From positions 1 through 33,321 of the forward strand of contig PXUB01000011.1 of assembly GCA_003009755.1 (NCBI GenBank): 33,321 nt of DNA. Reading direction: 5' to 3'. Below are positions 4,831-24,199 of the stretch, in pieces. The position numbers and the translations under genes are program-made. The DNA is from Thermoplasmatales archaeon SW_10_69_26 (lineage in GTDB: Archaea; Thermoplasmatota; SW-10-69-26). The notes under the pieces were generated by a model. It was not told the DNA's origin, searched no databases, and saw only the letters and a list, made by a program, of their open reading frames with translations. Numbering within the stretch: the first letter of the stretch is position 1; each line of letters begins with the position of its first letter.

Positions 4831-5032
4831 TCCCGGCCGCCGTTCGAGGCCGAACCGGGGACGCCAGCAACCCCCGGCCGCCCGCGACGACTGCCCTCCA
4901 ACGGTCGCTCAGCGACACCCCGAGAGGCCCGCTCGCTGTGGGCCCTCCGTGACGTCGACGAGGACCACCCCCAGGTGCCGAGCCGACAGGGGACGGGCCG
5001 AAACGCTCTTGGGCTCACAGCCACGCTGCCCG

Positions 5033-7165
5033 ATGATGAGAGGCTGGAGGCTCGCCACGCTGACCGTGCTCGCGCTGGCTGCCCTCGCCGGCTGCATCGG
5101 TACCGACGAGGTCCTCGACCGGCAATCCGCCGCCACGGACGCGCTCGATCCCACCGACGTCGAGGCGCCCGACGAGGCCGAGATCGAGGAGACCGAGGAG
5201 GGCGTCCGGGTCCTGCTCGAGGCGGTCGAGCTCCCGATCGAGCACGAGATCCAGGTCCCGGAGGACGCCGAGATGGTGCGCGTCACCGCCCACCACGCCG
5301 ACGAGGACCGAGCGATCTTCCCGGTGCTCGAGCACGCCGACACCGGCCACCACCGCTGCTACCCCTCGATCGCCGAAGCTTGGAACGTCGGCGTCAACGG
5401 CACGACCACGTGCGCGGCCCTCACTGCCCTCGACGGCGACAACGCCACCTGGAAGCTGTCCGTGAACGCGGCCACCACCTCCACGGACTTCCTCGTCTCG
5501 ACGCCCGTCGTCTCCGCGTTCCCGCAGAGCAGCGATCAGGGCGTCGCCGAGCGGGTCGCGATCGACTTCGTCGCCGACGCCGACGACGGCCTCGTCGACG
5601 AGATCGACACCGAAGCTCTCTCCGAGCCCCACCACGAGGTCGGCGACACCAGCTTCCACGAGGTCGAAAGCCACGACGGCTCCCAGCTGTGGGTCCAGGT
5701 CACCACGCCGGCCGACGACGCCCACGAGGCCTACCCCACCGTGATGGTCTCGACGCCGTACACGACCGGCGATCGGCAGACGAGCGAGCGCGTCTACGAG
5801 GACTACGTCAAGGAGTTCGTCCAGCGCGGCTACGCCGTCGTCATCGCCGACGTGCGCGGGTTCGGCCGCTCGGACGGCTGCATGGAGGTCTGGGGCCCCA
5901 ACGAGCAAGCCGACCAGGCCGAGCTCGTCGACTGGATCACCGACCAGGACTTCAGCGACGGCAAGGTCGGCATGACCGGCGTCAGCTACCCCGGGACGAC
6001 GCCCATCCAAGCCGCGGTCCAAGCCCCCGAGGGCCTCGAAGCCGTCGTCAGCATCGCCGGCGTCCTCAACGCCTACAAGGACTGGCACTTCGGCGGCGTG
6101 CCCAACGGCGAGTCGATCGGCAGCCCGATCGGCTACCAGACGATCGGACTCACCGCCACCGGCGAGGACCCCATCGAGCGCGCCACGGACCAGGCCAACG
6201 GCGTCTGCGATCCCTCGCTCGTCGCCCGCGCCAACGATCCGCGCGCCGTGCACGACGAGTTCTACGAGGTCCGCAACTTCACCGCTCGCGCCGACGAGGT
6301 CGAGGCCGCCGTCATGGTCGAGCACGGCTACAACGACGTCAACGTCAAATCCGCCATGCAGCTCGACTGGTTCAACGACCTCGACGTCCCCAAGGTCGGG
6401 ATGTTCGGCAACTGGCACCACCAGTGGGCCGCCCGCGCCGACGAGGTCACGATGCGCGTCGCCTGGATGGACCAGTTCGTCAAGGGGGAGAACCTGGGCC
6501 TGGCGAACGCCTCGACGGCATCGGTCACCGCCAACGGCGACCGCTACCGCGAGACCAACGCCTGGCCCGACCCGGCCGCCGAACCGCAAGGCTTCGCGCC
6601 CGACCTCGACGAGCGCAGCCTGCAGGCCGAGCCCGCCGAGGGCAGCGGCGAGGCGCAGATCCTGTTGACCGGCACGAGCAACGCCGAACCGCTCGCCCGA
6701 GCCGCCGGCGAGACCAGCATCGAGCTGTCGACGACGCTGAACGAGACCGTGCGCGTCGCCGGGCAACCCTACCTGTCCCTCGACGTGACGCTCGAGGGCG
6801 CCGAGAACGCCTACGTCGGCGCCGACCTGCTCCACGACGACGGCGACCACGTCCAACGGGTCACGTTCGGCTGGACGAACCTCGCCCACCGCGGCAGCCA
6901 CGACAGCTACGAGCCGCTGCAACCCGGCGAGCGGGTCACCGTTCCCTTGCCCTTCCTCCCGGGCGAGCACGTCTTCGAGGAAGGCGACGAGCTGCGGCTC
7001 GTCGTCCAGGGCGTCACCGAGGAGGACTGGTTCAAGTACCGACCCGGTCAGCCCGGCCAGCTCGTGCTCCACGGTGAGGGCACCCAGCTCACGCTGTCGA
7101 CGCTGGACGAGGGCGCCTACGAGGCGACGCCGACGAGTGCCACGCCCACCCAGCTGTCCGGCTAG
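5033..7165 (+). CDS. CocE/NonD-family alpha/beta hydrolase lipoprotein (peptidase S15 fold)
   Basis: This 710-residue protein begins MMRGW with a lipoprotein signal ending in LAGC; an upstream in-frame start would bury it. An acidic N-terminal beta region of about 190 residues precedes the hydrolase domain. The domain has DVRGFGRSDG, the nucleophile elbow GVSYPG (Ser318), HGYNDVNV (Asp435) and GNWHHQW (His462/463), which form a credible Ser-Asp-His triad. The C-terminal jelly roll of about 180 residues (YLSLDVTLEG, LRLVVQG) is typical of X-Pro dipeptidyl peptidase S15 and CocE esterases. The family cleaves ester or peptide bonds of varied substrates; the substrate here is unknown. It is likely extracellular and membrane-anchored. 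The stop shares CTAG with the convergent dehydrogenase gene. Confidence 0.9.
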   Translation: MMRGWRLATLTVLALAALAGCIGTDEVLDRQSAATDALDPTDVEAPDEAEIEETEEGVRVLLEAVELPIEHEIQVPEDAEMVRVTAHHADEDRAIFPVLEHADTGHHRCYPSIAEAWNVGVNGTTTCAALTALDGDNATWKLSVNAATTSTDFLVSTPVVSAFPQSSDQGVAERVAIDFVADADDGLVDEIDTEALSEPHHEVGDTSFHEVESHDGSQLWVQVTTPADDAHEAYPTVMVSTPYTTGDRQTSERVYEDYVKEFVQRGYAVVIADVRGFGRSDGCMEVWGPNEQADQAELVDWITDQDFSDGKVGMTGVSYPGTTPIQAAVQAPEGLEAVVSIAGVLNAYKDWHFGGVPNGESIGSPIGYQTIGLTATGEDPIERATDQANGVCDPSLVARANDPRAVHDEFYEVRNFTARADEVEAAVMVEHGYNDVNVKSAMQLDWFNDLDVPKVGMFGNWHHQWAARADEVTMRVAWMDQFVKGENLGLANASTASVTANGDRYRETNAWPDPAAEPQGFAPDLDERSLQAEPAEGSGEAQILLTGTSNAEPLARAAGETSIELSTTLNETVRVAGQPYLSLDVTLEGAENAYVGADLLHDDGDHVQRVTFGWTNLAHRGSHDSYEPLQPGERVTVPLPFLPGEHVFEEGDELRLVVQGVTEEDWFKYRPGQPGQLVLHGEGTQLTLSTLDEGAYEATPTSATPTQLSG

Positions 7166-8084: not shown

Positions 8085-9764
8085 ATGCTGGGGCAACGAG
8101 CGCTGGAGGCAACGCTGGGGATCGAGGAGCCCGTCTCGGTCGAGCCGAGGGAGATGGCCGAGGACCTCCGCATGACGCGGTTCCCCGACGAGAAGGGCGA
8201 CCCGACCGAGCAAGAGCAGGCCTTCGCCGACGAGCTCGCCACCACGTTCGCGGATCTGGGCGTCCAGATGGTGGACTTCGAGTCCACGCTCGAGCCCCCG
8301 CCGATCGGACGGGCGCTGGGTTGGCTCACGGACGGTGCCCGGCGGATCGTCGAGGATCCCACGCGTCTGCTCGGGAACGGCTCCGACAGCCACGAGGAGA
8401 CGACGACGCCCGGCCTAGCCGCGATCACGGACATCCGCTGGGGCGCCAAGGTCCAACCGGGCACCAGCGTGCTCGCCGCCGGCGAGGGCGAGACCGGCGA
8501 CCTGCCCGTGGACTACATGGGCGACTTCCGCGACGTCACGATCTTGACCGTCGTCGAGCGACCCGGCGACGTCGAGGAGGGCATGCCGTTCACCGACCAC
8601 TACGAGCGCGCGCTCGAGCTGTTCGCCCACCACATGACGAACGTCGTCGTCGGCGTCGGCGACGAGCAGTGGTTCATCTACAACTTCAACGGCTCGCACC
8701 CGTTCTACGCGATCGACGGCGACCGCGAGCACCAGATCCTGCACTCGCTGGTCCCCAAGCTGGCCGCCCCGATCCGGCCCCCGACGCTCTCCGAGTTCAC
8801 CATCGCCGAGCAAGCCTTCGACCCCACCGACGACACCCACCAGCCGCTGGTCGAGGACCTCGTCGGCTCCGGACCCCTGCTGGAGGAGACCGGGCTGTAC
8901 CCGGAGGGCATGGACCTCGACGACCTGGAATGGCGCAACGACTTCTACCGGTGGGCCGGCAAGATCCACCTCGACGACCGCACCGGCATGAGCTACGGGT
9001 TCCTCGCCCGCCAGACGCCCACGGCTACTGTACCCGGCCGCGAGCCGGGGGCCTTCGCCGAAGCGACCGGCACCCGGCCGGCCGATCCCGGCGAGGCTTT
9101 CTGGGTCGACGGGAACCTGCACGTCACCCTGGACCTGCCGGAGGGTCCGCTGGTCGTGCCCGTGCCGGAGGTCGAGGTGCTCACGCTGGCCAGCGGCTGC
9201 GACAAGACCGACCCCCACCCGCGCGAGGACCTGGTCAAGGTCGGCCTGCGGGACGGGCAGATGCGCATGGCCACGCCCGAGGGCGTCGAGCTGGCCGAAG
9301 GCTACCGTCCCAGCTTCGACACGCGCGTCATCCTCGCCCACGCCGTCGGCAACGCGCTGGTCGCCAGCGTGCTCGAGCACCGCGAGGGGACCCACGTCTT
9401 CGCCGACGATCTCGCCGAGGAGGGCATGGCGCTGGTGCACTGGCACGGCTACCTGAACCCCGACCACGTGCCCGAGGGCTGGCACGTGCACGGTGCCGAC
9501 CGGCCCCACGTCAGCTGCGGCACCCCGCAAAGCGCGATCTACGCGCTCGACGGGAAGCTGGCTGCCTTCCGCGAGGCCCGCGAGGACGGGCTGGACTTCC
9601 AGGGTGACGTCCACATCGAGCCCCAGCACGGCACGAACCTCACCCACCGGACGCTGGCGGACGTGGGTGAGCTGCTGAACACAGACGACGTCGCCGGCCT
9701 CGGCAACGAGCACCTCGACGCCTACGAGCCGCCGGCCGAACCCGAGGCCGCGCCCACGCCGTAG
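8085..9764 (+). CDS. 559-residue acidic protein of unknown family
   Basis: I do not recognise this protein. It has no signal peptide or membrane segment, so it is probably cytoplasmic. The N-terminal third is helical and acidic. The middle contains HMTNVVVGVGDEQWFIYNF and a Trp/Tyr-rich stretch. The C-terminal third is rich in His and Trp, with VHWHGYLNPDH, GWHVHG and HIEPQHG, which could bind a metal; a single Cys pair is seen at SGCDKTD and HVSCGT. ATG 8085 follows a GGAG Shine-Dalgarno and a TATA box. The gene lies about 80 nt upstream of the galactose-oxidase-like gene on the same strand, but that gene has its own promoter-like GGTTAAG. A functional link is only a possibility. Confidence 0.7.
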   Translation: MLGQRALEATLGIEEPVSVEPREMAEDLRMTRFPDEKGDPTEQEQAFADELATTFADLGVQMVDFESTLEPPPIGRALGWLTDGARRIVEDPTRLLGNGSDSHEETTTPGLAAITDIRWGAKVQPGTSVLAAGEGETGDLPVDYMGDFRDVTILTVVERPGDVEEGMPFTDHYERALELFAHHMTNVVVGVGDEQWFIYNFNGSHPFYAIDGDREHQILHSLVPKLAAPIRPPTLSEFTIAEQAFDPTDDTHQPLVEDLVGSGPLLEETGLYPEGMDLDDLEWRNDFYRWAGKIHLDDRTGMSYGFLARQTPTATVPGREPGAFAEATGTRPADPGEAFWVDGNLHVTLDLPEGPLVVPVPEVEVLTLASGCDKTDPHPREDLVKVGLRDGQMRMATPEGVELAEGYRPSFDTRVILAHAVGNALVASVLEHREGTHVFADDLAEEGMALVHWHGYLNPDHVPEGWHVHGADRPHVSCGTPQSAIYALDGKLAAFREAREDGLDFQGDVHIEPQHGTNLTHRTLADVGELLNTDDVAGLGNEHLDAYEPPAEPEAAPTP

Positions 9765-9843
9765 CCTCGCCGCGGAGGACCGGGGCTCGCCGGGGCGAAG
9801 GGTTAAGTCCGCGGCAGGACGTATCGCGGTCGGAGGCGAGCCA

Positions 9844-11808
9844 GTGGATCACAGATTCGGAGTCGTCCTGGTCGCGATCGCGATGCTGACCGTCCCCGCG
9901 TCCGCGATCGCCGGGGACGGCCACAACGCGATCGAGGCCGAGGGTGTCGCCGTCGAGAACGACGACCAGCACGAGACGAGCATCGCCTTGCCCGCCGATC
10001 CGGGAACGGGCAGCTGGGGCCCCGAGCTCGACGGCGAGGTGCCGGCCGTCAACCTCGCCGTGCTGCCCGGCGGCCAGATCCTGTACTACAGCGGGGTCGA
10101 GGCCGACGAGAGCGAGGACGAGGCCACCGACCTGCACTTCATCTGGAACGCCACCCCGATCCAAGGCCGCAGCCGCGTGGCAACGATCGACGGCGACTCG
10201 ATGTCCGTGGCCACGCCCACGCCCGCCAGCGGTGGCTACTACGACCTGTTCTGCAGCGGGACCACCGTCACGCCCGAGGGCCTCACCCTCGCCCCCGGCG
10301 CCACCGAGTACTACACGCTCGACGACGAGCCGCCGGCCAACCTCCTGACGCCGCTGAAGGGCTGGAACCAGACGCTGTTGTTCCCGCTGGACCCCGTCGA
10401 CGACGACCGCGACTGGATCCAGGGCCCGGACATGGCCGACGACCGCTGGTACCCCAGCGCCCTCCAGTTGCCCGACGGGGACACGCTGGTCGCCTCCGGT
10501 ATCCAGACGCTGTTCTACCCGCACACCTACAGCACGAAGCTCGAGACCTTCGACCCCGACGAGCCGGCGAAGGGCTGGGAGACGATGGACACCTCGTTCC
10601 GCGTCGGGCCGGCCACGGTCGACCAGAACCTCGCCCCCGAGCCCGACACCGGGGTCCAGCTCGCCGACGAGACCCACCAGGGCCTGCCGAACCTGCCGAT
10701 GTACCCCCGCCTGCACGTGATCCCGTCCGGGCCCAACGCCGGCGAGGTGCTCTACACCTCGAACGGCGACTCCTGGGGGCCCTTCGGCCACCACCCCACC
10801 CAAGCCGCCTGGGGCCACTTCCAGACGCTGGACCCCGACTACGGCGAGTGGGAGCTCCATCCGCGCAGCAACGTCGGCCACCGCCACCTGGGCACGACGG
10901 TCCCGATGATGGTCGACGCCGAGGACCCCGAGCCGCGCTACCTGTCCTTCGGCGGCACGATCCAGCAGAGCACCGCCGCCACGCCGACGACCGAGATCGT
11001 CGACGCCTCCGCGGAGATCGTCACCTCGCAACCGACCGACCCGATGACGATCCCGCGCTGGTCGGTGAACGGCGTCCTGCTGCCCGACGGCAGCGCGCTG
11101 GCGATCGGCGGCTCCACCTACGACAACGTGGTCGCCTACGGCTCGCCGACCGTCGGCCCGCTCAACGTCGAGCGCTTCGTGCCGAACGAGGACGGCACCG
11201 GCGGCGAGTGGGAGATGGGCCCCGCGATGGAGAGCCTGCGCGCCTACCACAGCACGGCGGTCCTGCTGCCGGACGGCCGCGTGCTCGTCGGCGGCCACGT
11301 GCCCCTGCCCGCCTTCCACGACGCTCAGCGCGGCAACGGCAACGCGCAGCCGACCGACGAGACGTTCCAGATCTACGAACCCGGCTACCTCGACCGGCCC
11401 GACGAGACCCGGCCCTCGGTCTCGGTCGACGCCAGCGCCGAGGCGGCGGTCGATCTGCCCGGCGAGACCGCGCTGCACGTGCCCGAGGACCAGGCGACCT
11501 TCACGCTGAGCGTCGACGGGCTCGAGCACGGGCTCGACAGCGTCGTGCTGCGCAAGCCCGGGGCGACGACGCACCAGTACAACGCCGACCAGCTCGGCGT
11601 CGAAGCCAACGTCGTCGACACCGATCTCACCGACGGCTCCGGCACGGTCACCGTCGAGGCCCCCCACGATCTGGCGATCCCGCCCGGGCACTACATGACG
11701 TTCGTCAACGAGGACACGCCGGAGGGAACCTACCCCTCCAAGGCCGCCTGGGTCGCGCTCGGCGACGACGTCACCGGCGACGCCCCCGGGGACGGGTACG
11801 CGGACTAG
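9844..11808 (+). CDS. Secreted galactose-oxidase-like copper-radical oxidase (kelch + DUF1929)
   Basis: This 654-residue protein has an N-terminal signal peptide ending near SAIAGDG. A kelch-like beta-propeller follows, with repeated LPGGQILYYSG, LPDGDTLVASG, LPDGSALAIGG and LPDGRVLVGG blades. A C-terminal DUF1929 domain contains GHYMTFVNED and AAWVALGD. Residues that make up the galactose oxidase active site are all present by motif. Cys137 (LFCSG) and Tyr203 (RWYPSA) would form the thioether cofactor. Tyr468-His469 (RAYHST) and His577 (TTHQYNADQ) would bind copper. The family oxidises primary alcohols or aldehydes to give H2O2. GTG 9844 is preceded by GGAGG 7 nt upstream and by GGTTAAG at about 9800. 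The stop shares CTAG with the convergent gene. Confidence 0.88.
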   Translation: MDHRFGVVLVAIAMLTVPASAIAGDGHNAIEAEGVAVENDDQHETSIALPADPGTGSWGPELDGEVPAVNLAVLPGGQILYYSGVEADESEDEATDLHFIWNATPIQGRSRVATIDGDSMSVATPTPASGGYYDLFCSGTTVTPEGLTLAPGATEYYTLDDEPPANLLTPLKGWNQTLLFPLDPVDDDRDWIQGPDMADDRWYPSALQLPDGDTLVASGIQTLFYPHTYSTKLETFDPDEPAKGWETMDTSFRVGPATVDQNLAPEPDTGVQLADETHQGLPNLPMYPRLHVIPSGPNAGEVLYTSNGDSWGPFGHHPTQAAWGHFQTLDPDYGEWELHPRSNVGHRHLGTTVPMMVDAEDPEPRYLSFGGTIQQSTAATPTTEIVDASAEIVTSQPTDPMTIPRWSVNGVLLPDGSALAIGGSTYDNVVAYGSPTVGPLNVERFVPNEDGTGGEWEMGPAMESLRAYHSTAVLLPDGRVLVGGHVPLPAFHDAQRGNGNAQPTDETFQIYEPGYLDRPDETRPSVSVDASAEAAVDLPGETALHVPEDQATFTLSVDGLEHGLDSVVLRKPGATTHQYNADQLGVEANVVDTDLTDGSGTVTVEAPHDLAIPPGHYMTFVNEDTPEGTYPSKAAWVALGDDVTGDAPGDGYAD

Positions 11809-17299: not shown

Positions 17300-17382
17300 T
17301 TTGCCGAGCGAACCTTGCAACGACCCGCCCTTCGACCGGGTCCGGCCGGGCTCCTTTGTACCAGCGGGGCGCTTGGTCGGGC

Positions 17383-18249
17383 GTGCTCGTCGCAGGGTCC
17401 ACCGCCTTCGACACGCTGGCCCGCGTCGAACGGTTCCCCACCGAGGAGGAGGCCATGAAGGCCGACGAGATCGCCTCCGGTGCCGGCGGCTGCGGCGCCA
17501 ACGTCGCCCGCGGGCTGGCCCGCCTGGGCCACGAGCCGCGGCTTCTGTCGGCCGTCGGAGCGGATTTCGCCGATAGTTCGGCCAAGCAGGCTCTCGAGGG
17601 CGACGGCGTGGATCTGGGACGGCTGGTGCGTGTCGAGGACGAGCCGACGGCCGCGGCGATGATGGCCACCGACGACACCCTCCAGCAGACGATCATCTAC
17701 GACGAAGGGGCCACGCCCCGCATGCGCGAGCTCGAGCCGATCGAGGCCGAGCTGGGCCACTTCGCGCCCGGCGAGGTAACCGCCTACCCCGAGCTGATGG
17801 CCGCGGTCGACCGCGTCGTCTACGATCCCGGCCAAGAGGTCTTCTACCGCCCCACCGAGGAGGTGATGGCACCCCTGGACGAGGTCGACGTGCTCGTCGT
17901 GAACGAGCACGAGGCCGAACAGCTGGCCCCCGCCGTCGGCGGGCTCGAGACGCTGGCTGACGAGCTCGAGGGCCTGGTCGTCACGCACCAGGGAGGCCAG
18001 CACGTCTACCAGAGCGGCGACCGTGTCGAGCTGGACGCCGTGGAGGCCGACGTCGTGGATCCCACCGGCGCCGGGGACGCCCACTGCGCGGGCCTGGTGC
18101 ACGGGCTCGCCGAGGGTTGGCAGCTGCCCGAGGCCTGCCGGTTCGGGAGCGTGGTGGCCGCCTGCGCGATCGAGAGCGTCGGCGCTCAGCGCGGCCTGCC
18201 GACGCGCGACGAAGCCCAGGCGCGGCTCCCAGGTGCCAAGAAGACCTGA
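17383..18249 (+). CDS. PfkB-family carbohydrate/nucleoside kinase
   Basis: This 288-residue protein shows the PfkB (ribokinase-like) pattern. It starts MLVAGSTAFDTLARVERFP, has the glycine-rich GAGGCGANVARGLARLG near residues 35-50, and carries the C-terminal signature DPTGAGDA at 226-233 with the catalytic base Asp232. Members phosphorylate sugars, nucleosides or similar alcohols with ATP or ADP. The substrate is not clear; short archaeal members with VNEHEAEQL are often annotated as adenosine or sugar kinases. GTG 17383 is preferred because the first beta-strand begins there and a TATA-like element sits 26 nt upstream. TTG 17356 is the alternative. Confidence 0.9.
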   Translation: MLVAGSTAFDTLARVERFPTEEEAMKADEIASGAGGCGANVARGLARLGHEPRLLSAVGADFADSSAKQALEGDGVDLGRLVRVEDEPTAAAMMATDDTLQQTIIYDEGATPRMRELEPIEAELGHFAPGEVTAYPELMAAVDRVVYDPGQEVFYRPTEEVMAPLDEVDVLVVNEHEAEQLAPAVGGLETLADELEGLVVTHQGGQHVYQSGDRVELDAVEADVVDPTGAGDAHCAGLVHGLAEGWQLPEACRFGSVVAACAIESVGAQRGLPTRDEAQARLPGAKKT

Positions 18250-18256
18250 GGCTCGC

Positions 18257-18750
18257 CACCTAGCCTGCCGGACGTTATCTGCTCAAGTCTCGCCGCCCTC
18301 AGAGGTTCGAAGGCGCGGAGCGGGACCGAAGGTCTGCCCGGATCAAAGATCCGGGCTCTCCCGAGGATCCGCCCTGCGGGCAGGGATCCTCGGGACTTGC
18401 CCCGAAGGGCAAGTCGAGGGATTCGCGACAACGCCTGCCACAGGGCCAACCGCGGAAACGACGTCATCGGGCGTCCGAGCAAGCCCCCCTTGTGTGGGGC
18501 TTGCGAGCTGTACGAGCCGCCCCGGGCGGCTCGTGCTTGTGAGGTCGGCCTCGCGGAGAGGCGCAGCACGGATCGACGATCCGTACGCGCCACAGACGGC
18601 CGGTGGCCGTCTCTGGCGCCGGCGTGAGGCGCCCCATCTCGTTGTCGCGCCCGGAGATCTCGCCCGAGGGCGATCTCCGGCGCGTCCGAACCCCCTGTGG
18701 GACGGCCGGAGCCTCGTCGGCGTTCGCCGTCTTGGAGCTGCTCGCCGAGG
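18257..18750. repeat. Non-coding stem-loop array, copy 1
   Basis: This spacer of about 500 nt is packed with perfect or near-perfect hairpins of unrelated sequence. Stems I measured: 18336-18356 (9 bp, loop AAA), 18360-18394 (11 bp plus an inner 4 bp), 18394-18415 (9 bp, loop CGAA; it shares base 18394 with the previous stem, so one must open by a pair), 18479-18504 (9 bp), 18512-18534 (10 bp, loop CCG), 18568-18584 (7 bp, loop GAC), 18594-18612 (8 bp, loop GGT), 18615-18633 (6 bp), 18651-18680 (8 + 4 bp with bulge), and the palindrome at 18736-18745. The left edge (18260-18296) is related to 33152-33189. It could be a structured RNA, a repeat family or a mobile-element relic. I find no convincing protein frame. 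Confidence 0.75.
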
Positions 18751-18788
18751 GGTCCGAGGGCCCTCGCCCGTGGCCGTCGGCGGGAACA

Positions 18789-18797
18789 CCTTTAAGG
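18789..18797 (+). promoter_or_regulatory. TATA-like element upstream of prf1
   Basis: CCTTTAAGG lies about 100 nt before the prf1 start at 18894. Transcription would begin near 18815-18820, giving a leader of about 75 nt. A strong GGAGGAG at 18811-18817 sits at that point and precedes a tiny reading frame rather than prf1 itself. Confidence 0.55.
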
Positions 18798-18821
18798 GGC
18801 TCCACATTCAGGAGGAGATGG

Positions 18822-18851
18822 ATGCCCTGCGTCCGTCGCCGTCCCCGTTGA
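18822..18851 (+). other. Possible 9-residue leader peptide before prf1
   Basis: ATG 18822 begins MPCVRRRPR and ends at a TGA, 42 nt before the release factor start. GGAGG at 18811-18815 is 6 nt upstream, a good Shine-Dalgarno spacing, and better placed than for the out-of-frame ATG at 18818. Four of nine codons encode Arg. If translated, termination at its UGA would depend on the very factor encoded downstream. If transcription starts at about 18818, the Shine-Dalgarno would not be in the mRNA and this reading fails. Confidence 0.3.
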
Positions 18852-18893
18852 CGAGCGGCCCGGGCCAGGGACGCCACCTTCTGGGGGTCCTGC

Positions 18894-20147
18894 ATGGCCA
18901 GCGACGAAGAGCAGAGCGAGCAACGTGCCCGCTACGAGTTCAAACGCATCCTCGAGGACCTCGAGGGCGTCCGGGGCAGAGGCACGGAGCTCGTGTCCCT
19001 GTACGTGACCCCGGACAAGAACCTCAACGACGTCCGCAACCAGATCTCCAGCGAGATCGGCGAGGCCCAGAACATCAAGTCTAAGTCCACGCGCAAGAAC
19101 GTGACCTCGGCGCTCGAGGTCATCGAGGGCGCGCTCAAGAACTACAAGCAGACGCCCGAGAACGGGCTCGTGTTCCTCGTCGGCCACAAGTCCGCCAAGG
19201 GCGATACAACCGAGATGGTCCGCCACGTCCTCGAGCCGCCCCAACCCGTGCCGGTCAACCTCTACCGCTGCGACAACACCTTCCACCTCGACCCGCTGGC
19301 GGGCATGATCGAGGACGCCGACGCCTACGGGCTCGTCGTCATCGACCGCTCGGAGGCCTCGATCGGGGTCTTGCGAGGCGAGCACGTCGAGACGCTGCGC
19401 CACACCCAGTCGATGGTCCCCAGCAAGCACACCGCCGGCGGGCAATCGCAGCAACGCTTCGAGCGCCTGATCGAGGAGGCCGCTCAAACCTACTTCCGAG
19501 ACGTCGCCGAGCAGGTCAACGAGCTGCTGTGGACCCGACGCGACAAGGAGATCCAAGGCCTGCTTGTCGGGGGCCCCGGCCACACGAAGGACGAGTGGCT
19601 GAAGACCGGCGAGCTCCACCACGAGCTCGAGAAGAAGCTCGTCGACACCTTCGACACCGGGTACGCCGACGAGTACGGGCTCAGCGAGCTCGTCGACCAG
19701 GCCCACGACACGCTCGAACAGCGAGGCCTGACGCGCGAGAAGGACCTCGTGGACGAGTTCCTCGCCGAGGTCCGCCAGGAGGGCGGCAAGTTCAGCTACG
19801 GGGAGGACCAGGTCCGCAAGCGCCTGCGGATGGGCGCCGTCGAGACGCTGTTGCTCTCCGAGTCCCTGCGACGCATCCGGGCCGACCTCGTCTGCCCCGA
19901 GTGCGAGCACCGGTTCCAGCGCACCACCGACGAACCCGATCAGTTCCGTCCCTCGCCCGCCGCCTGTCCCGAGTGCGGCGAGGAAGCCGAGATCGAGGCG
20001 GAGACCGACGTCGTGGCCGAGCTCACCGAGCTGGCCGACCAGCGAGGCACCGACGTCGAGCTGATCAGCGAGCAAAGCGAACAGGGCCAGATGCTCGTCA
20101 ACGCGTTCGGCGGCGTGGCCGCGATCCTTCGCTTCCGCATCAGCTGA
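18894..20147 (+). CDS. prf1: Peptide chain release factor 1 (aRF1)
   Basis: This 417-residue protein is an archaeal eRF1-type release factor. The N domain carries the stop-codon-reading motif NIKS at residues 60-63, and YRCDNTFHLDPL is also present. The M domain has the catalytic GGQ at 182-184 (TAGGQSQQRF). The C domain carries two zinc-ribbon-like CPEC motifs. It recognises all three stop codons and triggers peptide release, and with aPelota/ABCE1 relatives it links to recycling. Start ATG 18894 is preceded only by a weak GGGGG, unlike the strong site upstream at 18811. The stop is inside a hairpin at 20142-20169. Confidence 0.96.
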   Translation: MASDEEQSEQRARYEFKRILEDLEGVRGRGTELVSLYVTPDKNLNDVRNQISSEIGEAQNIKSKSTRKNVTSALEVIEGALKNYKQTPENGLVFLVGHKSAKGDTTEMVRHVLEPPQPVPVNLYRCDNTFHLDPLAGMIEDADAYGLVVIDRSEASIGVLRGEHVETLRHTQSMVPSKHTAGGQSQQRFERLIEEAAQTYFRDVAEQVNELLWTRRDKEIQGLLVGGPGHTKDEWLKTGELHHELEKKLVDTFDTGYADEYGLSELVDQAHDTLEQRGLTREKDLVDEFLAEVRQEGGKFSYGEDQVRKRLRMGAVETLLLSESLRRIRADLVCPECEHRFQRTTDEPDQFRPSPAACPECGEEAEIEAETDVVAELTELADQRGTDVELISEQSEQGQMLVNAFGGVAAILRFRIS

Positions 20148-20169
20148 CCGGTGCGCGAACCGGTCAGTT
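20142..20169 (+). terminator. Inverted repeat spanning the prf1 stop
   Basis: CTGACCGGT and ACCGGTCAG form a perfect 9-bp stem around GCGCGA, extendable by a G-U and an A-T pair. It contains the prf1 stop codon and ends next to the TTG at 20168. It may be a terminator, a processing site or an attenuator before the prepilin peptidase gene. Confidence 0.45.
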
Positions 20170-20197
20170 GAAGACCCCGACGGGGACTGGCGCGCCC

Positions 20198-20920
20198 GTG
20201 CTCGCCGTCGACGCGCTCAGGATCCTGACCGGCGCCTCGATCCTCACCTTCGCCGCCGCCTGCGACATCAAGTGGCGGCGCGCACCCGACGCCGCCTGGG
20301 GGGTGATGGCGGGCATCGGTGCCGTGCTCCTCGGCGTCCAGGCGTGGCTGGAACCAGCGTTCGTCGCCACCTACCTCCCCTCCCTCCTGACGGCCGGCAT
20401 CGTCGCCGTGCTCGCCATCGTCGGCTACCTCGGCGGGCTGATCGCCGGTGGCGCCGACGCCAAGGCCCTCGTCAGCCTCTCCATCCTGGCCCCGGTGCCG
20501 TTGGACGTGGTATGGACGGTGCCGCTCGAGAGCATCCTGCCCCTCGTCGTCACCGCGATCGCCAACGGGCTCGTCGTCGGGTTGGCCGTGCCCATCGCCC
20601 TGCTGTTCGTCAACCTGGCTCGCGGGGACGTCGACGGCTGGCGGACCCTGCTCGCCACGCGCGCCCCGACCGAGAACGTGCGCGAGCGGGTGACCTGGCC
20701 GCTGGAGTACGTCGACGAGGAGGGCGAGCTCGTGACCGTCACGATGCCCGGCAACGTGCCGGTCGACGGTTTCGACCGCGACGCGGTCCTCGACGCCGGA
20801 CGCGAACGGGTGTGGGTCTCGCCCAAGATCCCGTTCCTGGTGCCCTTGACCTTCGGGTTCGCGATCAGCGTGATTCTCGGCGACCCGCTGGCGGCCGGTC
20901 TAAGGCTCCTCCTCGCCTGA
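20198..20920 (+). CDS. Archaeal prepilin/preflagellin peptidase (A24 family)
   Basis: This 240-residue membrane protein has about six hydrophobic segments. The two catalytic aspartates of A24 peptidases are seen as Asp23 in CDIKWRRAPD and Asp87 in GGADAKAL, matching the D-x-K and GxxD-x-K motifs of FlaK/PibD. The enzyme cleaves class III signal peptides of pilins and archaellins at the membrane. A soluble loop of about 60 residues (WPLEYVDEEGELVTVTMPG) precedes the last helix, as in euryarchaeal relatives. GTG 20198 is chosen; TTG 20168 would add 10 residues and lies in the hairpin. The 3' end overlaps the convergent gene by 21 nt. Confidence 0.85.
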   Translation: MLAVDALRILTGASILTFAAACDIKWRRAPDAAWGVMAGIGAVLLGVQAWLEPAFVATYLPSLLTAGIVAVLAIVGYLGGLIAGGADAKALVSLSILAPVPLDVVWTVPLESILPLVVTAIANGLVVGLAVPIALLFVNLARGDVDGWRTLLATRAPTENVRERVTWPLEYVDEEGELVTVTMPGNVPVDGFDRDAVLDAGRERVWVSPKIPFLVPLTFGFAISVILGDPLAAGLRLLLA

Positions 20921-21811
20921 GGGCTCCATCGCCGTCTCGTCCTCGGCGGGGGCATCCTCGTCGACGCGTGTCAGCGTCTTGATCTCGCGCGTGCTACCGT
21001 CCTCGGGCGTGACGCCCAGCTTGGCCACGCACAGATCGCCGGGCTTGGCGTCCTCGGGGGCGCGCACCATCATGTAGACGGTCCGGTCCTCGTCGGGCCC
21101 CAGCTCGAGGCTGGGCAGCGTCGTCAAGGCGCTCCAGCCCTCTTGGACGTCGGTGACCTCGAGTTCGACCTGCACGGCATCCGAGCCCTCGTTCTCCAGC
21201 TCAATCGGGTAGCTCGTGCCCCGGCCGGGCTGCACGTCGCGCTCGCTGTCCTCGCAGGCCGCCCCGACCCGGGGCTGGCGGTTGCGGTAGACGACGGGCA
21301 CGCCGACGACCGTGCCGGCCACGATCGCTCCGAACACGATCCACGCGACGGGCAGGCCGCCACCGTCGCCGCCCTCGGCCACCGGTGCGTGCGTGAACGC
21401 CAGCGAGACCGTCTGCGTCGACTGGCCACCCGAGTTCGGGACGTCGCACCCGTAGTCCTGAACGTTGGCCTGCAGCTGGGCGTCCCGCTCGACGTCGCCC
21501 TCGAAGCGGACGTCGACGTCGATCTCCTGGGTCTCCCCGGAGGCGATGCTGACGGGCTGTTCGGTGGGTGTCCAGTACCAACCGCTCGGGAGCGGGGACG
21601 TGATCCGGAAGGTGCCGTCGGCCTCGAAGTCACCGGTGTTCTCGGCCACGAACGTGTAGGTCCGTTGCTCCCCGGGATCGAAGGGTCCCTGGGGGAGGTC
21701 GTCGGCTGCCGACAGGGTGAGCTCGCAGTTGCCCTGTTCGAGCTGGGCCGCCGCCCCCATGGGAGCCAGCACGGCCACGGCTAGCCCCAGCGCGATCCCG
21801 AGGTTCCGCAT
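20900..21811 (-). CDS. Exported membrane-anchored protein with two beta-sandwich domains
   Basis: This 303-residue protein has a signal peptide (MRNLGIALGLAVAVLAP to AAAQLE). An extracellular domain resembling CARDB/NEW3 additive-domain sandwiches follows (YTFVAENTGDFEADGTFRI, VDVRFEGDVERDAQ). A membrane helix lies at about 157-178 (VAWIVFGAIVAGTVVGVPVV). A second sandwich (YPIELENEGSDAVQVELEV, RTVYMMVRAPEDAKPGDLC) and an acidic tail finish the protein. By simple topology the second sandwich would be cytoplasmic, which is odd for such a domain. ATG 21811 is supported by a GGGAG and by a TATA-like CCTTAAG about 27 nt upstream on its strand. Function unknown. Confidence 0.72.
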   Translation of the reverse strand: MRNLGIALGLAVAVLAPMGAAAQLEQGNCELTLSAADDLPQGPFDPGEQRTYTFVAENTGDFEADGTFRITSPLPSGWYWTPTEQPVSIASGETQEIDVDVRFEGDVERDAQLQANVQDYGCDVPNSGGQSTQTVSLAFTHAPVAEGGDGGGLPVAWIVFGAIVAGTVVGVPVVYRNRQPRVGAACEDSERDVQPGRGTSYPIELENEGSDAVQVELEVTDVQEGWSALTTLPSLELGPDEDRTVYMMVRAPEDAKPGDLCVAKLGVTPEDGSTREIKTLTRVDEDAPAEDETAMEPSGEEEP

Positions 21812-21952
21812 AGCTCCCTCACGACGAACCGCCAGCTTAAGGCCTTCGCAACGTCCCATCTCCCGGTCCGGCCCGATCCGCGCTCCTCGGGCGGAAGTTT
21901 CGGCTCACCCTGCAAGCAGGATACTTGCCTTCACGGGCGGGCAATAGCTGCG

Positions 21953-24199
21953 ATGGCTGTGGCCACCGAGGGGTTCGCGCTCGCCGAAGCCGAGGAACGG
22001 CCCTACCAGACGACGATCGCCCGCCAGTGCTATGGCCGCAACAGCCTGATCGTCCTCCCGACCGGGCTCGGGAAGACGATCATCTGCGCGCTCATCGCGG
22101 CACGCTACGTCGACGACGGGGAGCGCGTGCTCGTCGTCGCCCCGACACGGCCGCTCGTCGACCAGCACGCCGAGACCTTCCGCGAACAGCTGCCCGAGGC
22201 CGACGTCCGCGCCGTCACCGGCGACGACCGCCCCGCGGACCGCGGGGACCTTTGGACCGAGACCGACATCGCCGTGGCCACGCCCCACGTCGTCCGCAAC
22301 GACCTCTACGCCGACCGCGTCGATCCGGCCACCTGGGGCCTGCTCGTCGTCGACGAAGCCCACCGCGCCGTCGGGAACTACGCCGCCGTCCCCGTCGCCC
22401 ACCGCCTCCGCGAGGAGGGTTGCCGCATCCTCGGCGCCACCGCCTCGCCCGGCAGCGACGTCGACCGGATCGAGGAGGTCTGCCAGACGCTGGGCATCCA
22501 GCACATCGAAGCCCGGGGCCGGTGGGACGACGACGTGGAACCCTACGTCGAGCCGGTCTCGATCGAGTGGGTCCGCGTCGGGCTCCCCAACACGCTCGAG
22601 GAAGCCGCCGCCAAGCTGCGCGAGACGGCCGAGGACCACGTCGACGAGCTGCGCTCCACGGGCCTGTACAGTTCACGGTTCCTCAAACGCGGCCCCCTGC
22701 TCGAGCTGCGGGAGGAGCTGCGTGGCCGCCTCGAGGAGGACCGCACGCGCTCGATCTCGGACGCCCTCGACCACGTCGGGCGCGCGCTCAAGCTCCTCCA
22801 CGGCGTCAAACTCGTCGAGACCCAGAGCACCGCCGCCGCCCGCGAGTACCTGGAAGACATCGCCAACGAACGGGACCAACGGCCCCCCGAAGCTTTCCGC
22901 GACGCCCGCCGGCTGCTCGACGGCTACATGGGCGAGCACCCCAAGATGCGCCGATGCGCCTCCGAGCTCGAGAACACCGTCGCCGACGGCGGCCGCGCGC
23001 TCGTGTTCGTCCAGACTCGCGAGACGGCCAGCGCTCTCGCCGACGCCCTCGACGAACGCCACCGCCTCGACGCCGACCTCTTCGTCGGCCAAGGCGGCGA
23101 GGACGGGCTCACCCAGGACGAACAGCTCGAGCGCATCGAGGCCTTCCGCGAGGGCGAGACCAACGTCCTCGTCTCCACCAGCGTCGGCGAGGAAGGCCTC
23201 GACATCCCCGACGTCGACCTCGTCGTCTTCTACGAGGCCGTCGCCAGCGCCATCCGATCGATCCAGCGCCGCGGCCGCACCGGCCGCGATGCACGCGGCC
23301 GCGTCGTCGTCCTCATGGCCCGCGGCACCTCCGACGAGGCCGCCTACTGGACCGCCAACCGCCGCGAACAGCGGATGCGCGAACTCGTCCGCGAGCTCCA
23401 GGCGAACGGTGAGGATCCGGACCCCGTCATCCGCGAGAACCCCTCGACGCCCACGACCCACGAAGACGCAGACGAACCGCACATCATCGTCGACCACCGC
23501 GAGCTCAACGGGACGATGGCTCGCCTGCTCTCCCAGGAAGGCCTCTCGATGGAGCCCTCGACGGTCGGCGTCGGCGACCTCATCGTCTCCGAACGCGTCG
23601 TCGTCGAACGCAAGACGCCCGAGGACTTCGTGGAGAGCATCATCGACGGACGGCTCATGGACCAGGCCCGCACGCTGAAGAAGAACTACGAGGCCCCGAT
23701 CGTCGTCGTCGAAGGCGATCCCTTCGCGACGCGCTTGGACGTCTCGGATGCGGCTATCTCCGGGGCGATCGCCGCGCTCGGCAGCTCGTTCAAGGTGCCG
23801 GTCCTCACCGTCGAAGACACCCGGCGCGCGGCCGACATCGTGGCCGCGATCGCCCGCCGCGAGCACGATGAGGGCTCCGGGCCGCCCAAGCTCCGCCACG
23901 AGACCGGCGGCCGCAGCCTCCCGGAGAAGCAGCAGTTCGTGCTCGAGGGCCTGCCCAACGTCTCGTCCACGCTGGCCCGCCGCCTGCTCGAGCACTTCGG
24001 CTCCCCCGCGGAAGCCCTATCCGCCAGCGAGGAGGAGCTGGAACGGGTCCGCGGCATCGGTCCCACGACGGCAACGGCCATACACGAGGTGCTGCATGAG
24101 CGCACCGAGACCCCGTGGCCGACCGAGAGCTCACCGTCCACCCCTCCCCCGGCGAGCACAACGCCCTCTGGTACTGGGCAGGGGAAGTCGGTTTCCTGA
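21953..24199 (+). CDS. hef: Hef-type helicase-nuclease (FANCM/XPF homologue)
   Basis: This 748-residue protein has a superfamily 2 helicase at about residues 15-490: PTGLGKT at 36-42, DEAH at 134-137, GATASPG, and QRRGRTGR. An XPF-family nuclease follows at about 495-625, with GD (Asp542), ERK at 552-554 and Asp558. Tandem helix-hairpin-helix motifs come last (LPNVSSTLARRLLEHFGS and VRGIGPTTATAI). Archaeal Hef processes stalled replication forks and is linked to crosslink and fork repair. A TATA-like GGATACTTG sits about 30 nt upstream. The final 28 codons overlap the acyltransferase gene in another frame and are low-complexity Ser/Thr/Pro, probably a by-product of the overlap. Confidence 0.94.
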   Translation: MAVATEGFALAEAEERPYQTTIARQCYGRNSLIVLPTGLGKTIICALIAARYVDDGERVLVVAPTRPLVDQHAETFREQLPEADVRAVTGDDRPADRGDLWTETDIAVATPHVVRNDLYADRVDPATWGLLVVDEAHRAVGNYAAVPVAHRLREEGCRILGATASPGSDVDRIEEVCQTLGIQHIEARGRWDDDVEPYVEPVSIEWVRVGLPNTLEEAAAKLRETAEDHVDELRSTGLYSSRFLKRGPLLELREELRGRLEEDRTRSISDALDHVGRALKLLHGVKLVETQSTAAAREYLEDIANERDQRPPEAFRDARRLLDGYMGEHPKMRRCASELENTVADGGRALVFVQTRETASALADALDERHRLDADLFVGQGGEDGLTQDEQLERIEAFREGETNVLVSTSVGEEGLDIPDVDLVVFYEAVASAIRSIQRRGRTGRDARGRVVVLMARGTSDEAAYWTANRREQRMRELVRELQANGEDPDPVIRENPSTPTTHEDADEPHIIVDHRELNGTMARLLSQEGLSMEPSTVGVGDLIVSERVVVERKTPEDFVESIIDGRLMDQARTLKKNYEAPIVVVEGDPFATRLDVSDAAISGAIAALGSSFKVPVLTVEDTRRAADIVAAIARREHDEGSGPPKLRHETGGRSLPEKQQFVLEGLPNVSSTLARRLLEHFGSPAEALSASEEELERVRGIGPTTATAIHEVLHERTETPWPTESSPSTPPPASTTPSGTGQGKSVS

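Follow-up and report, generated by a model that had tools for sequence, protein, structure and literature searches.

The window analysed here, a 33,321-nucleotide stretch of DNA that makes up the whole of contig PXUB01000011.1 (C11) of Thermoplasmatales archaeon SW_10_69_26, encodes at positions 9844–11808 of the forward strand what is in all likelihood an exported copper radical oxidase (CRO) of the GlxA/glyoxal-oxidase type. The Cys, Tyr, Tyr-His and His residues of the predicted active site are invariant across 17 archaeal and bacterial homologues, the predicted fold matches that of solved CROs, and the archaeal proteins form a clade of their own on the GlxA side of the family tree.

The gene and its predicted active site

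The open reading frame starts with GTG, encodes 654 residues, includes its stop codon within the coordinates and shows no internal stop in the translation; its homologues align over nearly their full length. A candidate ribosome-binding site, GGAGG (9832–9836, forward strand), was recognized by eye 7 bases upstream of the start codon. The protein begins with the hydrophobic stretch FGVVLVAIAMLTVPASAIA (residues 1 to about 23; 9844–9912, forward strand), by eye a probable Sec signal peptide. Lipobox-like N-termini were also read by eye in two archaeal relatives, as LPGC in L013 and AAGC in L015. Because of this Sec-like N-terminus and the lipobox-like N-termini of the relatives, the oxidase is probably exported or surface-bound.

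The initial annotation had described a kelch propeller followed by DUF1929 and had named four active-site motifs, LFCSG (Cys137), RWYPSA (Tyr203), RAYHST (Tyr468-His469) and TTHQYN (His577); each motif was located exactly as claimed. Cys137 (10252–10254, forward strand, as are all residues below), the sole cysteine of the protein, is the predicted thioether partner of Tyr203 and is invariant in 17 of 17 aligned members. The segment Arg201-Trp202-Tyr203-Pro204 (10444–10455) is likewise invariant in all 17, with Tyr203 as the predicted cross-linked copper ligand, 66 residues from the cysteine, and Trp202 as a stacking tryptophan of the GlxA W288 type. Tyr468-His469 (11245–11250), the predicted axial tyrosine and first histidine ligand, align with the RxYHS motif of galactose oxidase, alcohol oxidase and GlxA, and His577 (11572–11574), the predicted second histidine ligand, aligns with the VTH/STH motif of solved CROs. 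Gln221 (10504–10506) takes the place of galactose oxidase Trp290 in the alignment with 9g43, a position that is aromatic in none of the 17 members.

The 17 homologues are 23–44% identical to the query, and only 29 of its 654 positions are invariant among them; these include Cys137, Arg201, Trp202, Tyr203, Pro204, Tyr468, His469 and His577. The first-shell residues follow one another in the order Cys, Tyr, Tyr-His, His, and the pattern CRWYP...RYH...TH recurs in 17 of 17 members. The chance that all five first-shell residues would be invariant is about 1e-7, or 4e-9 for six with Trp202 included, if positions are taken at random, although Cys, Trp, Tyr and His are amino acids often conserved in any case. 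In a profile alignment to solved structures, the FC, RxY, RxYHS and TH motifs of the query fall on the ligands of galactose oxidase and alcohol oxidase, and in a phmmer alignment they fall likewise on those of GlxA. Trp202 can be equated with GlxA W288 because the RWYP of wild-type GlxA becomes RAYP in the chains of its W288A mutant.

Kelch propellers often serve as binding modules, and the protein could be a catalytically dead structural or binding protein that has kept the kelch/GO-like fold. We regard this as highly improbable, because invariance of the first shell and the stacking tryptophan across 17 members of such low identity to the query is not expected without function.

The fold evidence agrees with a CRO. 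The GO-like early set domain PF09118 (formerly DUF1929) spans residues 549–638 (11488–11757, forward strand) and scores 41.8 bits (cut-off 25). An AlphaFold2 model built on the 17-sequence alignment is of fair quality (pTM 0.83, mean pLDDT 77). The 10-residue blocks with Tyr203, Tyr468/His469 and His577 have mean pLDDT values of 87–91, the Cys137 block reaches only moderate confidence (mean 70), and 105 residues fall below 50; the model is poor at the N-terminus and in a few insert loops. In a Foldseek search of the PDB, ranks 1–27 were all CROs (E values from 9e-33 to 2e-26), followed by other kelch proteins at 8e-14; these matches bear out the propeller and DUF1929 architecture as well as the CRO fold. 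The TM-scores on the query are 0.56–0.64 with an rmsd of about 5–7 Å, so we read the model for its overall fold and not for distances: the predicted fold is right overall and the blade packing imprecise. A profile search of PDB sequences returned galactose oxidase (2e-113), alcohol oxidase (6e-105), GlxA (1e-94) and fungal glyoxal oxidase (9e-53), with generic kelch proteins after them. That Cys137, Tyr203 and the other ligands would come together at a single metal site, which the initial annotation had set as its test, is supported indirectly, by the fold match and the aligned positions.

Enzyme kind and proposed function

The tree was anchored on proteins with solved structures, namely galactose oxidase, alcohol oxidase and GlxA. 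A branch with support of 100/99 splits galactose oxidase and alcohol oxidase (AA5_2) from GlxA and the archaeal proteins. Five archaeal proteins form a clade (96/89 to 96/91) that is sister to an uncharacterised actinobacterial clade, their joint branch being supported at 100/98 to 100/99. The archaeal clade stands apart from Streptomyces GlxA, with which its joint branch reaches just 80/66.

The initial annotation had called the protein an archaeal galactose-oxidase-like enzyme. The CRO fold and active site, the archaeal genome and the likely export hold; galactose oxidase as the nearest kind does not, given the Trp202/Gln221 arrangement and the tree. A galactose or alcohol oxidase of AA5_2 type, which in line with the initial annotation would oxidise extracellular glycans at C6 or terminal alcohols, shares the overall architecture, and galactose oxidases are among the closest solved relatives by both profile and fold. 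This assignment is nonetheless unlikely: Gln221 occupies the Trp290 place and Trp202 the GlxA place, the 100/99 branch sets the archaeal protein apart from AA5_2, and the glyoxal oxidase Pfam model matches 17 of 17 aligned family members. In the oxidase itself, Glyoxal_oxid_N (PF07250) scores 26.8 bits, under its gathering cut-off of 37.5. According to a 2026 paper (PMC13094651), the stacking tryptophans of a fungal AA5_1 aldehyde oxidase (W509, next to the cross-linked Y510) and of Streptomyces GlxA (W288) sit at another point of the chain than W290 of AA5_2 galactose oxidase; C450 and Y510 of the AA5_1 enzyme lie 60 residues apart. RWYP also occurs in bacterial homologues that fall on the AA5_2 side; the tryptophan placement may for that reason be the older state, and aldehyde specificity is only suggested by it.

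By its sequence the oxidase is a GlxA relative, with GlxA orthology excluded, because its sole NCBIfam match, to the GlxA equivalog NF052501, scores 98.8 bits, far under the curated cut-off of 800. That score and the separate clade make it improbable that the protein does exactly what GlxA does in Streptomyces, making a surface glycan with a cellulose-synthase-like partner, even though it lies on the same side of the tree, places the tryptophan identically and is probably exported. The surroundings point the same way: no adjoining glycosyltransferase was found, no neighbour is common to the archaeal loci, and a search of the genome found no DyP peroxidase. In Streptomyces, GlxA needs the helpers Sco and DyP peroxidase (PMC4736821), and the Sco-like matches in the archaeal genome are weak (28.3 and 27.2 bits). 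As the search for partner genes came up empty and the known helpers are weak (Sco) or absent (DyP), we keep the reading at an exported, H2O2-yielding aldehyde or alcohol oxidase.

What is observed for this oxidase is its set of residues, how invariant they are, its overall fold and where it falls in the tree; copper, thioether, radical and H2O2 would be expected by analogy with the family. After export, copper would be loaded at Tyr203, Tyr468, His469 and His577, and this loading would drive formation of the Cys137-Tyr203 thioether, on which Trp202 would stack. The resulting Cu(II)/tyrosyl-radical pair would act outside the cell, where it would oxidise a primary alcohol or a small aldehyde in hydrate form by two electrons and reduce O2 to H2O2. 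O2 is a plausible co-substrate because the genome encodes a haem-copper oxidase (COX1, 539 bits). A small aldehyde is the substrate we favour, by somewhat better than even chances, and galactose-type alcohols are a less likely choice. It is conceivable, if rather doubtful, that the proteins form an archaea-specific CRO subfamily acting on an archaeal surface component or metabolite, with a distinct substrate pocket (loops DNVV.HG and GGHVPLP) and a way of making the Cys-Tyr cofactor that dispenses with the GlxA helpers, possibly at high salt.

Genome setting, distribution and origin

The source genome comprises 2.8 Mb in 49 contigs and is 95% complete and 2% contaminated. The contig is archaeal, since RadA, aRF1 and a Hef-like helicase/nuclease were recognized by eye among the translated open reading frames of the window. 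The window proteins are acidic (RadA pI 4.6, RNR pI 4.3), which fits a salt-adapted proteome, and the oxidase, with a pI of 4.09 and 0.8% Lys, is the most acidic among the homologues compared. The acidity of both argues against recent arrival or contamination.

In a search for operon or partner genes, comparison of the window genes with the archaeal and bacterial loci found no oxidase neighbour common to them; what few matches there were amounted to weak similarity of the S15 kind in L015 and generic SDR similarities in L022 and L030. Around the oxidase in L012 and L013, Pfam identified ABC transporter, UbiD, tRNA endonuclease and THUMP genes, with nothing consistent between them. Immediately upstream of the oxidase, positions 8085–9764 (forward strand) encode a 559-residue protein with no Pfam match, whose homologue within the class occurs only in G043, a genome of the same family, at 56% identity. 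We dropped this gene as an operon partner, the G043 homologue and the G043 oxidase lying on different contigs. Further upstream, 4949–7165 (forward strand) encodes a Peptidase_S15/PepX_C (CocE-like) hydrolase with a lipobox-like N-terminus, LAALAGC, of which a weak relative (25% identity) adjoins the oxidase in L015. Elsewhere in the window, ARAGORN called a tRNA-Val (cac) at 17851–17939 on the reverse strand, antisense within the PfkB-family kinase frame at 17356–18249 (forward strand); this overlap suggests that the call is a false positive.

Archaeal homologues, for which the initial annotation had proposed a search, were found in Thermoplasmatota metagenome-assembled genomes (MAGs). A protein match at 1e-10 or better was obtained in 6 of 390 Thermoplasmatota genomes, and PF09118 scored above its cut-off in 6 of the same 390, five of them common to both lists; the gene is present in five other Thermoplasmatota MAGs besides the source genome. 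Within the window's class, a real copy occurs in 3 of 7 genomes (G000, G043 and G037), that of G043 being cut by the contig end. A GO-like fragment in G031 was rejected as an intact gene, as it holds only the C-terminal 74 domain positions in a frame of 176 residues. A pattern scan of 84,980 species, by which alone the other archaeal phyla were covered, returned four archaeal MAG loci (L012–L015) and 17 bacterial loci. The record of L014 (JAJPHT010000022.1, Centralia_MAG_189) is titled 'Proteobacteria bacterium', and the genome itself falls within the archaeal class of the window; it is probably a mislabelled MAG. On some proteobacterial MAG contigs, as in L024 (6001–10146) and L030 (4394–7350), two or three CRO-like genes lie next to one another.

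The oxidase was not found in viral contigs, and plasmids yielded only bacterial relatives below 30% identity and no archaeal one. In the phylum of the Frankiales MAG that carries L016, relatives occur in 27 of 297 sampled genomes, and their identity to the archaeal L012 protein reaches 43%. In G043 the oxidase adjoins a block with PfkB kinase, aRF1 and Hef genes, whereas the window has this block about 5.5 kb further downstream; the arrangement fits inheritance within the family. This G043 contig (L072, 1–7283; G043:C89) carries genes for the PfkB kinase, aRF1, a prepilin-peptidase-like protein and a Hef-like protein in the order of window positions 17356–24199, and its truncated oxidase gene is divergent from PfkB. 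The simplest reading of a tree without an outgroup root is that the gene probably entered the phylum once, from actinobacteria-like bacteria, and was later inherited within it.

Novelty and comparison with known systems

A 2013 study reported archaeal orthologues as absent and proposed a eukaryotic origin of the family with transfer to bacteria (PMC3543389). In the titles and abstracts of the open literature, we found no paper with an archaeal CRO as its subject. The chemistry is established, and fungi and bacteria are well-known sources of this kind of enzyme; what is new, to the extent that this could be checked, is the host group. The initial annotation had suggested a new setting for Cys-Tyr cofactor chemistry. 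An archaeal branch with a complete predicted site stands, and it would extend Cys-Tyr radical copper chemistry to Archaea; the novelty is smaller than proposed, as bacterial relatives are common and public MAGs already carry the gene. The Thermoplasmatota branch is thus a modest new setting for known chemistry. The proposed eukaryotic origin of the family deserves re-testing, because its bacterial diversity is broad and the archaea form one branch. A strongly acidic archaeal CRO (pI 4.1) might also serve where salt stability is wanted.

Among known systems, GlxA of Streptomyces lividans and S. coelicolor (SCO2837; PDB 4UNM) shares with the archaeal protein the kelch propeller and early-set fold, the Cys/Tyr/Tyr-His/His site, the tryptophan before the cross-linked tyrosine (W288) and, probably, export. 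The two are only about 20% identical in the fold alignment and belong to separate clades; GlxA has a long insert between Cys and Tyr (about 168 residues in alignment numbering), whereas the archaeal protein, with 66, lacks it, and neither a CslA-like nor a DyP partner was seen for the archaeal oxidase. The fungal AA5_1 aldehyde/glyoxal oxidase FgrAldOx (PDB 9N3U) resembles it in Cys-Tyr spacing (60 versus 66), in the tryptophan before the tyrosine and in the first shell. Unlike this enzyme, the archaeal protein has no WSC domains, and its AA5_1 profile match (9e-53) is weaker than that to galactose oxidase, with Glyoxal_oxid_N below the gathering score. The AA5_2 galactose and alcohol oxidases (1GOF, 9G43 and 6RYV) have the fold and the first-shell ligands in common with it, but they lie on the opposite side of the 100/99 branch, carry Trp290 where it has Gln221, and have Gly in place of Trp before the cross-linked tyrosine. 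The sister clade is an uncharacterised bacterial branch of actinobacterial CROs (L016 from the Frankiales MAG, L052, L053, L055, L058 and L065), of which L016, 30% identical to the query, shares with the archaeal proteins a loop of GGHVPLP/GGHAPI type after the Tyr-His motif.
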